From Fimbriimonas ginsengisoli Gsoil 348 (GTDB taxonomy: Bacteria; Armatimonadota; Fimbriimonadia; Fimbriimonadales; Fimbriimonadaceae), in NCBI RefSeq assembly GCF_000724625.1, contig NZ_CP007139.1:2294001-2358000 (forward strand): DNA of 64,000 bases. Reading direction: 5' to 3'. Numbering within the stretch: the first letter of the stretch is position 1; each line of letters begins with the position of its first letter. Shown piece by piece: positions 14,788 through 51,200 of the stretch. The translations under genes and the position numbers were made by a program. Under the pieces are notes generated by a model that did no database searches, was not told the origin of the DNA, and saw nothing but the letters and a program-made list of their open reading frames with translations.

Positions 14788-16590
14788 GTGCGTTTTACCG
14801 AGGCCCTAAAGCGGGACTTTCTGATCGGGGACGGGGCCAACGGCACCTGTCTGGCCGAACGTGGATTTCATCGGCAGCCGTACGATTTAGCCAACCTTCA
14901 GGCGCCCGATCTTGTCCGCGAAGTGCATCTCGAGTATTTCGACGCCGGCGCGGACTTCGTTGAAACGAACACGTTCCAGGCAAACCGGATCCGTTTGGTC
15001 GACCTGACCGTCGATGTCCGCGAGCTGAACCTCGCCGGCGCCCGTTTGGCCCGCGAGGCGGCGGGCGATCGCTTGGTGCTGGGCGCGATTGGACCTTGCG
15101 GCAAGCCGATGGAGCCGATCGGGCACATCACCGAGGCCGAGGTCGGCGAAGCGGTCCGCGAGCAGGCGCAGGCGTTGGCGGACGGTGGAGTCGACGGCTT
15201 CATCCTTGAAACCTACACCGATATCTGCGAGCTAAAGGTGGCCGTCGAGGCAGTTCAGCAGGTCTCCTCTCTGCCGATCATTGTCAGCAAGGCGTACATC
15301 GAAGATGGCGAGATGCTCGCGGAAGGGCTGCCGGTTCGGTGCACGAAGGCGATGGGGGAGTTGGGCGTCGCCGCGGTGGGCGCCAATTGCATCGTCGGAC
15401 CGCAGAGGATGCTCGACTTGGTGAGGCAGATCGCCGAGTCGACCGAGCTCCCGATCATCGCCTTCCCCACGCCCGGTCTGCCTCAGCTCGTCAAGGGACA
15501 GATCGTTTACGACACCTCGCCGGAGTACTTCGCCAAGGCGGCCTCGCGCCTGGTGGAGGAGGGGGCCAAGATCGTCGGGGGGTGCTGCGGCACCACGCCC
15601 GCGCACATTCGGGCGTTGCGCCGGGTGCTGGAGTCGGGCCGGATCAAGCCGAAGCCGCGGACGACGGTGGCGGCGGTAACGAAGGAACGCGCCCCGCTGG
15701 CGACGACGGAGCCGAGTGAGCTGGCGCAAAAGCTGGGCCGGAAGTTCGTCGTCGCGGTGGAGATGGACGTTCCGCGGGGACTCAATTTGAACCGGCTCCT
15801 CGCCGGCGCCCGCTCGCTAAAGATCTCGGGCGCGGACGTGATCAACATCTCGGACGGAGCGCGGGCGCGCCTTCGGATGAACCCGGCGGCGGTTTCGCAA
15901 ATCATCCAAAGCCAGGTGGGGATCGAGGTCACGATGCATTTCTCGTGCCGGGACCGGAACCTGCTCGCGATACAGAGCGACTTGCTGGGTTGGCACGCGC
16001 TCGGTCTGCGAAATATCCTCGCGGTAACCGGCGACCCGGCCAACATCGGCGACTACCCCAGCGCGACGAGCGTGTTCGACATCGATTCGATCGGCCTCTG
16101 CCGGATTCTCAATCGCTTTAACGAGGGGATCGACTTGGCCGGCTACTCGGTCGGCGTCAAGTGCGGCTTCACGATCGCATGCGCGTTCAACCCGCGCTCC
16201 CTCGATCCGGTGCTCGAGCTCGACCGATTGAAGCGAAAAGTCGACGCGGGAGCGAGCGTGGTGTACACGCAGCCGGTCTTCGACGACGAGAGCGCCGATA
16301 TCGCGGCCAAAGCGTGCGACGAGCTTGGGGTTCCGTGTTTGGTCGGACTGCTTCCGTTGCGTTCGGGCCGGCATACCGAGTTCATGCACAACGAGGTCCC
16401 CGGAATCCGAATCCCGGAGTGGCTTCGGCAACGAATGGCGGACGCCGAGAACGACGTGGACGCGGTCGAGATAGGCCTCGAAGAGGCGCAGCGGCTGGCG
16501 GTCCACATCAAATCGGTCGCCAAAGGGATCTATCTGATGCCGCCCTTCGGCAGCCACGCCATCGCCGAACGAGTCATGGCCGCCCTATGA
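14788..16590 (+). CDS. Bifunctional homocysteine S-methyltransferase / 5,10-methylenetetrahydrofolate reductase
   Basis: 600 aa with a GTG start. Residues 1-290 are a homocysteine methyltransferase TIM barrel with zinc ligands Cys201 (GANCIVGP) and Cys266-Cys267 (GGCCGTTPAHI). Residues about 315-600 are an MTHFR barrel (MDVPRG, HFSCRDRN, LAVTGDP, QPVFD), with a FAD/NADH site. Fusions of this kind, like Bacillus YitJ, supply 5-methyl-THF and methylate homocysteine to methionine. No SAM-responsive riboswitch was recognised in the 99 bp upstream, which contain only two small hairpins. Confidence 0.9.
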   Translation: MRFTEALKRDFLIGDGANGTCLAERGFHRQPYDLANLQAPDLVREVHLEYFDAGADFVETNTFQANRIRLVDLTVDVRELNLAGARLAREAAGDRLVLGAIGPCGKPMEPIGHITEAEVGEAVREQAQALADGGVDGFILETYTDICELKVAVEAVQQVSSLPIIVSKAYIEDGEMLAEGLPVRCTKAMGELGVAAVGANCIVGPQRMLDLVRQIAESTELPIIAFPTPGLPQLVKGQIVYDTSPEYFAKAASRLVEEGAKIVGGCCGTTPAHIRALRRVLESGRIKPKPRTTVAAVTKERAPLATTEPSELAQKLGRKFVVAVEMDVPRGLNLNRLLAGARSLKISGADVINISDGARARLRMNPAAVSQIIQSQVGIEVTMHFSCRDRNLLAIQSDLLGWHALGLRNILAVTGDPANIGDYPSATSVFDIDSIGLCRILNRFNEGIDLAGYSVGVKCGFTIACAFNPRSLDPVLELDRLKRKVDAGASVVYTQPVFDDESADIAAKACDELGVPCLVGLLPLRSGRHTEFMHNEVPGIRIPEWLRQRMADAENDVDAVEIGLEEAQRLAVHIKSVAKGIYLMPPFGSHAIAERVMAAL

Positions 16591-16732: not shown

Positions 16733-17390
16733 ACTGCAGCCCGGAACGGGCGACCTCCAAAAGCGAAGGGCGCAGCCCTGGTAACGGAAACACCGACAAT
16801 GAAGAGCTGAAGGGGCGATCTAATCCCAGACGTACTTCTCGTCGAACTCGATGCCGCTCTCAGCGAAGAACTTTCTCATCTCCTCTTGAAAGGACAGCGT
16901 TCGGTGGTGCGCCTCCTGGTTCTGGATGTACGACACGACACCCCCGCAATGGACCGGATCGACAGAGAACGCCGCGTATCCGCTTTGCCAAGCGAAGTCT
17001 CTGAGGTACGGCCTTTTCGTCTTAAGCCAACTCGACGAGCTCGTCTTGACATTGCCGATCGTCGAGGCGAGGGTTTTCGTTCGGGAAAGCTGAAATAGGA
17101 CGTGGATGTGGTCGAGATATCCTCCCACCTGGATGGAAGGCGAACCATCGTTTCGGAGCACGGCGATAAGGTAAGGAAAGAGCTCTTCTTGGACGTCGCT
17201 GGTCAGAACCGGCCGACGGTCCTTTGTGCTGAACACGGCGTGGACGAGCACGTTGGCGAGACTCTGTGGCATTTCGCCGATTATATCGACGTCTGGGATT
17301 AGACCGCCCTTTCAGGGCTCGGGTTCGCGCGCAACTGTAACCAGGGCTGCGCCCTTTGCTTTAGGAGGTCGCCCGTTCCGGGCTGCAAGT
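16733..17390. mobile_element. REP-associated transposase unit with long inverted ends
   Basis: Two inverted arms of about 100 bp (16733-16832 and 17289-17390) enclose a Y1 transposase gene. Their 51-bp core (16735-16785 versus 17337-17387) matches at 48 positions when one is inverted. Each core folds into GCCCG-GAA-CGGGC and AGGGC-GC-GCCCT hairpins. The inner part of the right arm also repeats the last codons of the transposase (GTCTGGGATTAG). This is the architecture of a RAYT with its own REP pair. Confidence 0.75.
16820..17272 (-). CDS. REP-associated tyrosine transposase (Y1/IS200-like)
   Basis: 150 aa. The Y1 transposase fold is indicated by the HUH-type motif HIH at 55-57 (GGYLDHIHVLF), an N-terminal start typical of the family (HAVFSTKDRRP) and a Tyr at 115 in VVSYIQNQ, the expected nucleophile helix. 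It cuts and joins single-stranded REP hairpin DNA. It is surrounded by inverted REP arms that it probably recognises. The gene looks intact. It is closer to single-copy domesticated RAYTs than to IS200 because it has no flanking accessory ORF. Confidence 0.85.
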   Translation of the reverse strand: MPQSLANVLVHAVFSTKDRRPVLTSDVQEELFPYLIAVLRNDGSPSIQVGGYLDHIHVLFQLSRTKTLASTIGNVKTSSSSWLKTKRPYLRDFAWQSGYAAFSVDPVHCGGVVSYIQNQEAHHRTLSFQEEMRKFFAESGIEFDEKYVWD

Positions 17391-17432: not shown

Positions 17433-17607
17433 GGTCCCGTAGCCCGGGGATAATGGTCACTGACAAATTAGGTTTACGTTTCCCTTATCTGGTTTCGCCC
17501 GTAGCCCGTGGCTTTAGCCGCGGTTCAAGGTTCTACCGGGGATAAATCCCTGGGCTACGGGTGAACCTTTGTTGTCAACTTATTTGGTTGATGACCGTTA
17601 TCGCCGG
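17433..17607. repeat. Family C repeat: 64-bp element plus tail, with a partial second copy
   Basis: The core at 17498-17561 is bounded by 10-bp inverted ends CCCGTAGCCC/GGGCTACGGG. It matches 46566-46629 in the opposite orientation at 61 of 64 positions, and a weaker match continues about 46 bp beyond it. A partial copy of the tail lies at 17433-17478. It may be a miniature element mobilised in trans by the neighbouring transposase (inference). Confidence 0.75.
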
Positions 17608-17628: not shown

Positions 17629-17647
17629 CATCGGCTGGGAGCCGATG
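17629..17647. repeat. Family B hairpin
   Basis: CATCGGCT-GGG-AGCCGATG, just downstream of the MFS gene stop. Together with the copy at 16607 it brackets the RAYT region. Confidence 0.7.
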
Positions 17648-17657
17648 CTACGTGAGG

Positions 17658-48223: not shown

Positions 48224-51200
48224 CTACCGTCGTACGTCTTTCAGGCTAGAAGCGCTAACCGGGACGCGACAAGAGGGATCTCGCTCGCTGGATTCCCATG
48301 CCCGGATCTTGCCGTCTTCGCAAGCGGCCACCACTTTCTTCCCATCCGCGGTAAAGAGAATGGATCGAACGGACCCGTTCGAGGCCTTCATGTCGGCGAG
48401 CTGAACGCCCGTAACGGCATCCCATAGCTGCCAAGACCCGCCATCGTTGGCGGTCACCACACGTTTGCCGTCGGGAGATAGATCGGCGCCGCCGATCCGT
48501 TGGGCGACGTTCCCCTGGAACTCCATTTTTTCGGTGAGGGAGGCCATGTCCCAAAGCACCGCCCGCCCATCGGCGCCGCAGGTGAAGAAGCTCTTTCCGT
48601 CGGCGGAGAAGGTCAAATTGGTGATGCGGAGGTTGTGTCGCTCCAACCTGGCCCTGACCTTGCCGGTATGGGCGTCCAGAACGAGCAGAGCCGCCGCTCC
48701 CACGAAGGCAAAGACGGAGTCTCCCCTCGGCGAGACCCAGAGCCCGTTACGCCAGCCCTCGGCATGGTATTTCCAAAGCACTTCGCCGGTTTCACCCGAG
48801 ATGCCCAAGATATCGCTCGTTTGCGGCATCAAAATCGCGAACACGTCCCGAGCGATTCCGCCGGAAAAATTGATCGGAACCATCGGTAAACGAATCGGCT
48901 TTGCGTCGCTAAAGGGATCGGTAAAGATCGTCGCTTGGGCTGCGCCCTTCGTGTACTCCACTTGCCATCGGCCGTTGTACGTGTAGCCGCGAAAATGGGC
49001 CGGAGCGGGCGATAGTCGGCCTTGCACCAAGCCCGGGTCGGAGAATCGGAGGAGGCCACGGGGCGAGACCTGAAAGACGGCGAGGTTATTTTGGCCGTTG
49101 CGGCCGATTCGGTCTCCTTGGCCTAATATTCGAGGACCCACTGAGTTTCGGAGATCGAAGAGCCGTACCGACGCGGACGCCGCTACGATTTCTGAACTGG
49201 AAGCGGTCCCCGAAAGATTCCATATGTTGAGGATCGTCCCCAGTGGGTTGCCGGTTGGAAACTCTTCGACGATCGCCTTGCCCGTGCGGTCGAGGGTGAC
49301 GACCTTTTGTTCTCCGTCCGAGAAGCAGCCAGCGGTCCGGGTTTCGCCAGGGGACCAGAGGCGCCGGTAGATCGTTTCGTGGCGATCGACGTCACGACCT
49401 ATCGTCCCCGACTTGCCGTCCCCGTAAAGCAAGTATTTCCCTGAGTCGGACAGGTCGTAGAACGCGCCGCTGTCCTCGAGGGTGAAGCGATCCACCTCCC
49501 GGTGAGACGACGGCTCCATCACCACGACGTTGCGAAGGCCGGCTTTGCCGGCTCCGCGTCCGGGGGTGATCAGAACTCGGCTTCCATCTCGCGAGAAAGC
49601 CACTGGGAGTTCGATGGAAAGCCCCGGTCCCCCCCAACAAAAGGTTTGGTGACCGGTGGTCAGATTCCACAGATCGACCCTCCCGCCGGGAACTTTGTTA
49701 GGAAGCTCTTCCAGGGTGAGGACGATGTCCGAATTCGGGCGAGTCTCAAGGGTCGAGATCCTGCCGTCCGGATTTCCAATCCGCCTCAGTTCCTTGCGCG
49801 ATATCAGATCGACCACGGGCGCCGGAGTGACTTGCGTATCGACAGTTAGGAAGCCGGTCTTGGTGGCGACCACTTGCTGGGTCGGCGTTAAATTTCTCGT
49901 GCAAATCGTCCGCTTAGACGTCCGGTCGATGACCGTCGCCGTCATGGTCACGTCGTCGGTCAGGCAGATGAGTCGGCCGTCCCACGTGAGATAGCCGTTC
50001 TCCCGCTTGCCCGGGGCTCGGTAGTCGAGGGTGTACTCCTCCTTCGCATCGTGGAGGCGCTTCATCCAGAGTCCCCATTCGATGCTCCGGTAAGGGCTGT
50101 TTTTCGTACGTTCCAGGATCTGTGCGATCCGCGGGGTGTCTCCGTTTTCCTCGAAGAGGCGGAGATTATTCATGTCCGCGATGTACAGCTCTCGGTCGAG
50201 GGCGACGGTTGCGGCTTCGGCCCTGCGTTGCGAGGTCCAGGCGAAGATTCCGAACGCGGCCACGGTTGCCAGAACCGCGGCGTAGGCGGCGGTGGCGCGA
50301 ATGATTCCCCGGCGGAACGACTGTTGCAGCCGCAGCAACTCTTGCCCCGGCATGTTTTCTTGGATCCACTCCGCATCGAACACCCGCTGGTAGATCCGGT
50401 TTCTCGGGCGAAGCCGCATGCCGTCGGACCGGACCAAACCCGAGAGCTTGAGGAGGCTCGCCACCCGGTTTGCCTCGTCGTCGGTCACCGGTTTACCCTT
50501 GAGCGCGCGGGCGTACGCGGAAAGAAGGTCGGCTCGGAACCGTTCGGGGTCCGGCTCGGCAAAGCCGGCATTCAGAGCCCGATTCGCAACATCCGCCAGG
50601 TTGACGTTTCGATCGCGAGCCTTGGGCCCGAAGAGCTCCTTTTCGATCAAGTCGTCCACTTGCTTGGACGTTTGGATCGCGGGATCGGCCGCGATAGCGG
50701 CGCATAGGCTCTGGCTAAGGAACGGATGGCCTCCGGTCCAGTAGTGGACGCGCTCGATGAGCGTATCCCCGTTCGGGCCGAGCGCGCTTGCTAGCCTGCG
50801 CATCTCCTCGACCGTAAAATCCCGTAGGTAAACCCGCTCGCCGATGTTGAACGGCGTCGTCGTAGGGTTCCTAATCAGGTCGCTGGGCACCGCGACGCCG
50901 AGGATGCAGAAGGTCAGCCTTTGGAACGCGGGATCTTGCACGCGACGATTGAAACACTCCCGGATCCCGGCGAAGAATTCGTCGGTGTCGAAGGGAAGGT
51001 TGCGTGTGGCGTCGATCTCGTCGATGCAGAGAACGATCGGCTGTTCGACCTTTTCGAGGACCACCTCGCGGAGCGCGCCGAAAAAGCGTCGCATCGGCCC
51101 GAATTCGGACTTTGCCTTCCAATAGGCCAGGATCTCGGCTCTGAGTCCGAGAACCCGTCCAAGCTCCGCCGCCATGCCGATGTACCACTGGTCGGGCGTC

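Follow-up and report, generated by a model that had tools for sequence, protein, structure and literature searches.

In bacteria, the ends of an ancestral IS200-like element are the presumed source of REPs and REPINs, and the known RAYT transposases are mostly single-copy genes with no sign of self-movement (PMC2817692, PMC3116915, PMC8266576). REPs lie immediately after rayt stop codons and four rayt 3' ends are built into BIMEs (PMC2817692), while REP termini supply TAG stops (PMC3733652); stop codons abutted or supplied by REPs and the capture of rayt 3' ends are thus already published (PMC2817692, PMC3733652). The biochemistry described for IS200/IS605 elements and REPs involves a guide tetranucleotide 5' of a hairpin and cleavage at a CT (PMC8266576). 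Another group of Y1 transposases, TnpA_Y1 subclass 1.2, consists of proteins of ~148 aa with the motifs DH[IV]H, WQ and Y---Q--HH (Quentin et al. 2018, PMC6006769).

Here we analysed a 64,000-nucleotide stretch of the Fimbriimonas ginsengisoli Gsoil 348 genome (the window), in which a first-pass annotation had placed a RAYT transposase between inverted REP arms. We interpret this locus, with a probability of about 0.7, as a small transposable element, autonomous now or recently, that combines an IS200/IS605-class Y1 transposase of the subclass 1.2 type with ~100-bp inverted arms of three hairpins each. The unit is present in two copies, its arms are dispersed alone, gene-less arm pairs occur in two related arm families (B and C), and the architecture is found in other phyla. 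The parts of the unit are as follows (window positions).

16736-17386, no strand: complete unit of arm, transposase gene and inverted arm, 651 bp; ends taken from comparison with the second copy
16820-17272, minus strand: Y1 HUH transposase gene, 150 aa, with DHIH, WQ and YIQNQEAHH, catalytic Tyr115 intact (PF01797 5.1e-21, alignment, AlphaFold/Foldseek)
16736-16833, minus strand: stop-side (downstream) arm, covering the last 14 nt of the gene (inverted match, genome search, second copy)
17289-17386, plus strand: start-side (upstream) arm, inverted copy (inverted match, genome search, second copy)
16820-16833, minus strand: gene end ACGTCTGGGATTAG, last codons and TAG stop (exact match to 17289-17302)
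17289-17302, plus strand: gene end repeated in inverted orientation within the upstream arm (sequence match)
16804-16816, minus strand: HP1 of the stop-side arm, broken, GG lost relative to copy 2 (comparison with copy 2)
17306-17318, plus strand: HP1 of the upstream arm, GCCCTTTCAGGGC (sequence, covariation analysis)
16767-16779, minus strand: HP2 of the stop-side arm, AGGGCTGCGCCCT (predicted fold)
17343-17355, plus strand: HP2 of the upstream arm (predicted fold)
16739-16751, minus strand: HP3 of the stop-side arm, GCCCGTTCCGGGC (predicted fold and compensatory changes among genomic copies)
17371-17383, plus strand: HP3 of the upstream arm (predicted fold, covariation)

The window protein scored 75.5 bits against PF01797 (cut-off 23), as an HUH Y1 transposase should, and among the aligned relatives H55 and H57 are invariant and Y115 nearly so. 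With its AlphaFold model (pLDDT 90.8), Foldseek found the ISDra2/IS608 TnpA at 3.5e-9, compared with 2e-5 for the TnpAREP 4er8. With a profile built from 36 relatives, IS200/IS605 transposases of known structure (ISDra2, IS608 and related TnpA) gave E-values of 5e-15 to 2e-11, and E. coli TnpAREP did not match at E<=10. The NCBIfam model transpos_IS200 was narrowly missed (51.2 bits, cut-off 55), and REP_Tyr_transpos was clearly failed (18 bits, cut-off 80). The class-2 RAYT motif Y---NP is absent, with YIQNQ in its place. By motif, profile and fold the protein is of the IS200 class; the YIQNQ motif, the 18 bits against 80 and the IS200-class profile and fold rule out a class-2 RAYT, and the initial identification as a RAYT is not supported. 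The length of 150 aa and the DHIH, WQ and YIQNQEAHH motifs fit subclass 1.2 as tabulated (Table 1, PMC6006769), a comparison made by description. Separately, another Y1-transposase-like domain (L038, G000:C1:2235782-2235943) shares a single 561-codon open frame with an alcohol-dehydrogenase-like N-terminus and is a possible fusion.

On either side of the transposase gene, the inverted cores at 16735-16785 and 17337-17387 are complementary at 48 of 51 nt (94%), the same count that the first-pass annotation had given. A second inverted block (16807-16833 against 17289-17315; 27 nt, 93%) takes in the end of the coding sequence. The annotation had also reported that the arm before the start codon contains the last codons and the stop, and this is correct: the plus-strand ACGTCTGGGATTAG at 17289-17302 is the exact reverse complement of 16820-16833 over 14 nt, a match in register with the arm that has a chance probability of ~4^-14. 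Each arm has three hairpins, HP1 nearest the gene, then HP2, and HP3 outermost. Two hairpins had been proposed for each 51-nt core, and two of 5 bp are indeed predicted; across 26 genomic copies, two-sided changes occur in 3 of the 5 predicted HP3 pairs, and this covariation supports the outer hairpin. However, the predicted hairpin energy of the cores is no better than that of shuffled sequence (z ~ -0.4), and the arm contains a third hairpin, HP1, that the proposal lacked. In the stop-side arm of the window unit HP1 is missing a GG at ~16806-16807 relative to the second copy.

That second complete unit lies at C1:18565-19217 and is identical to the window unit in 643 of 653 aligned columns (98.5%), whereas the flanks are unrelated; copying therefore involved the entire unit. 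The match breaks off exactly at GCAGCCC...GGGCTGC, which sets the limits of the element at 16736-17386. A segmental duplication of a larger region was rejected, since there is no similarity between the flanks of one unit and those of the other. In copy 2, Tyr115 is replaced by Cys, while all other aligned proteins have Tyr in that column; the window copy has kept Tyr115 and has a broken HP1. Because of these two lesions, neither copy may now be autonomous. Whole units are paralogous in two further genomes. Another genome of the genus (G003) has two 653-bp units that are 86.5% identical, and the two 732-bp units of Brevifollis (Verrucomicrobia, G038) share 88% identity; in both genomes the limits of homology fall at the arm ends. 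Paralogous whole units are therefore present in three genomes of two phyla, each time with unrelated sequence outside the arms. As with insertion sequences, these are highly similar whole copies with fixed ends at unrelated sites. Match scores in 27 further genomes yielded few candidate pairs of near-identical whole copies, which seem to be uncommon.

We used the stop-side arm as the query against the window's own genome, one 5.23-Mb contig. There were 44 matches at E<=10; not counting the two units with a gene, 16 matches reach E<=0.006 (family A). The genome encodes two further related genes, each with an arm family of its own (B, 48 matches; C, 38 matches); families A and B are related, and some weak matches are counted in both. 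Coverage by long open reading frames was 0.36 and 0.22 inside the units, compared with 0.90 and 0.91 in the flanks, and the arms of these families are dispersed, mostly intergenic repeats. Further genomic copies are what the first-pass annotation had predicted; the outcome that it had named as refuting, an absence of further copies together with a segmental duplication, is excluded by the many copies and by the unrelated flanks of the second unit. The arrangement is RAYT-like, the inverted repeats on both sides of the gene being scattered through intergenic DNA as well. Furthermore, gene-less head-to-head pairs, in which HP1 faces inwards and HP3 outwards, occur four times in family B and seven times in family C, in the same geometry as around the gene; a single tail-to-tail neighbour proved to be the junction of two head-to-head pairs. 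No head-to-head arm pairs of family A, the window family, were found in the genome. Inverted pairs that may be mobile units of the REPIN kind are thus present in families B and C and in the verrucomicrobial genome G032, and absent from family A. By eye, the strand distribution of solitary copies had no clear pattern. Inside the window, a 15-nt match at 48937 (L028) was discarded as a chance match.

Some of these repeats have further sequence in common. Many solitary copies of family B (L126-L150, ~1450-1700) share ~50 nt more upstream, GAGGGCTCCTGATATTGTTAGGC, and the motif TTGGACGCACCTTCGATCGTTAGGC downstream, which suggests that they belong to a longer composite repeat of ~200 nt. A sub-family (L003, L008, L016, L132, L137 and L152) has GGGACGG shortly before the hairpin foot, a motif absent from the gene-flanking arms. 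Other repeats lie close to the unit. GTAGCCC-tagged palindromes in inverted, REPIN-like arrangement adjoin it at 17436-17565, and a classical GTAG REP, GTAGCATCGGCTCCCAGCCGATG, lies ~240 bp away at 17629-17651 on the minus strand. The latter has 165 genome matches with <=2 mismatches, compared with 1 for the control, and therefore a separate GTAG REP system coexists with the arms. Near the class-2-like Y1 genes examined, we found no GTAG REP except one in L041.

Dispersed arms raise the alternative of a domesticated REPtron, in which the transposase is a fixed host gene that moves arms only and dispersed arms gave rise to the second unit through homologous recombination or gene conversion. Such arms exist in the genome, and if pre-existing arms had recombined, the homology would likewise stop at their outer ends. 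The relatives are mostly diverged single copies, and the known RAYTs are not self-mobile (PMC2817692, PMC3116915). Recombination into pre-existing arms stays a rival because no empty site was shown: the relatives do not keep the gene order around the window unit. The neighbouring homocysteine-methyltransferase/MTHFR-like gene (14788-16590) is present in 16 of 20 genomes of the genus, and in no relative is it adjoined by the flanking MFS gene, so the site is not comparable among relatives. Nevertheless, family A has no head-to-head arm pairs able to receive a gene, and the paralogous whole units of three genomes in two phyla, with unrelated sequence outside the arms, argue against this alternative, which we consider improbable.

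We compared the regions after the stop and before the start of relatives in public genomes of several phyla. Significant inverted matches (score >=40 and above all 60 shuffles) were present in 42 of the 78 testable relatives. The verrucomicrobial genome G032 has a dispersed arm family of its own, with 65 matches and similar gene-less pairs, while for a Chryseobacterium relative (L066) a search for the arms elsewhere in its genome did not reveal dispersal. These results bear on another explanation, that the unit is a standard IS200/IS605 insertion sequence whose hairpins are due to chance and which has undergone a local inverted duplication. The class and fold of the protein, the small size and the whole-unit copies would all fit. 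However, long inverted arms in so many relatives and arms dispersed alone in the genome would not, and known elements of this group lack terminal inverted repeats (PMC2817692), making this explanation very unlikely.

The 14-nt stretch of gene end repeated in the upstream arm had been taken as a direct view of how a REP originates from its transposase, with the end of the gene as part of the repeat unit. The second statement applies to the gene-flanking arm in the window, whereas dispersed copies start at the stop or ~4 nt before it. When 29 genes were aligned by their downstream sequence only, the codons before the stop matched the inverted upstream arm at about chance level; identity rose at the stop codon (58, 42 and 46% per position) and then reached ~70-90%. 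In solitary copies of family B the repeat opens with the stop trinucleotide, preceded by conserved sequence peculiar to these copies. The few full-length copies of family A have GGATTAG-like feet and thus reach ~4 nt further than the stop. In verrucomicrobial copies, the gene's TGA is mostly replaced by CGA or CGC. In the genome, a stop trinucleotide is at the hairpin foot in 19 of 22 solitary copies, which are related and not independent. The foot, TTAG, TGAG or TGAT, belongs to a three-hairpin unit of ~100 nt, outside the definition of a GTAG REP (GT[AG]G, 20-50 nt). Gapped alignments suggested codon capture in L062 and L070 as well, which inspection did not bear out. Judged from the sequences, coding codons are clearly copied only in the gene-flanking arm of the window family.

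An origin of the repeats from the 3' end of the gene, by which a coding end copied out would have founded a REP family, would be consistent with the exact 14-nt copy and with the GGATTAG-like feet of several full-length family-A copies. The chance-level match of codons across the 29 genes, the family-B copies that begin at the stop behind a conserved upstream sequence of their own and the CGA or CGC of the verrucomicrobial copies all contradict it, and we give it hardly any credence. Because dispersed units generally lack the gene's last codons and these match at chance level, the 14-nt copy is a local event and is no demonstration that REPs arose from coding sequence. It is best read as secondary: a stop-side arm was copied over the upstream arm and took the end of the gene along.

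For a self-mobile element, the steps beyond the copying of unit and arms can be proposed from analogy and sequence analysis. The transposase would act as an HUH nuclease on single-stranded DNA and bind the arm hairpins. The short foot 5' of HP1 (TTAG, TGAG or TGAT), which overlaps the stop codon, may be used in recognition or as a guide. Cleavage would occur near the outer end (...GGGCT) on a single strand, and the whole unit or, in trans, single arms and gene-less pairs would then be transferred. The overlap with the stop codon may be a matter of economy, the terminal repeat starting where the gene ends.

Among described systems, TnpA_Y1 subclass 1.2 shares with the window protein the size of ~150 aa, DH[IV]H, WQ, Y---Q--HH and the class-1 (IS200-like) core (PMC6006769). 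It was described as having no REPs, as generally lacking IS200 ends and as occurring mostly in Cyanobacteria and Bacteroidetes (PMC6006769); here, by contrast, we found three-hairpin inverted arms, dispersed families and duplicated units in Armatimonadota and other phyla. A match in the same order (G026, 61% identity) seems to correspond to locus L044 of an Armatimonadetes MAG. The published account of the subclass as one without REPs is thereby revised, as judged against the open-access literature; an earlier description elsewhere may exist. RAYT/REPtron and REPIN systems (Nunvar 2010 PMC2817692; Bertels and Rainey 2011 PMC3116915) likewise have a gene enclosed by inverted palindromic repeats that also occur scattered over the genome. 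In them, too, a REP lies at the stop codon, the 3' end of the gene can be captured, and there are inverted pairs that lack a gene, as in families B and C. They differ from the present unit, which has an IS200-class protein and ~100-bp three-hairpin arms rather than short GTAG REPs, and for which there is evidence of copying as a whole. TIRYT/TIRtron elements also pair a Y1 transposase with long terminal inverted repeats, some of them genome-repeated (Di Nocera 2013 PMC3733652). Those transposases are mainly of subclass 2.1, with a median of 238 aa, an HTH-like C-terminal domain and GGGGWSAS in many TIRs (PMC6006769), whereas the window protein has 150 aa and is of the IS200 class. IS200/IS605 elements (IS608, ISDra2) share the catalytic fold and class, the small size and the IS-like copies; known members have no terminal inverted repeats (PMC2817692), and the window unit ends in inverted repeats of ~100 bp.

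Since an IS200-class transposase with REP-like dispersed ends is here copied together with its whole unit, the step from element to REP family becomes testable in one system. Tentatively, and with somewhat less than even confidence, we propose that subclass-1.2 transposases form a widespread group of self-mobile elements whose long three-hairpin inverted ends release single REP-like units as well as inverted pairs without a gene. They would be a present-day counterpart, outside the class-2 RAYTs, of the postulated autonomous ancestor of REPINs. The unit looks like a still-living form of the element that is thought to have given rise to bacterial REP repeats.
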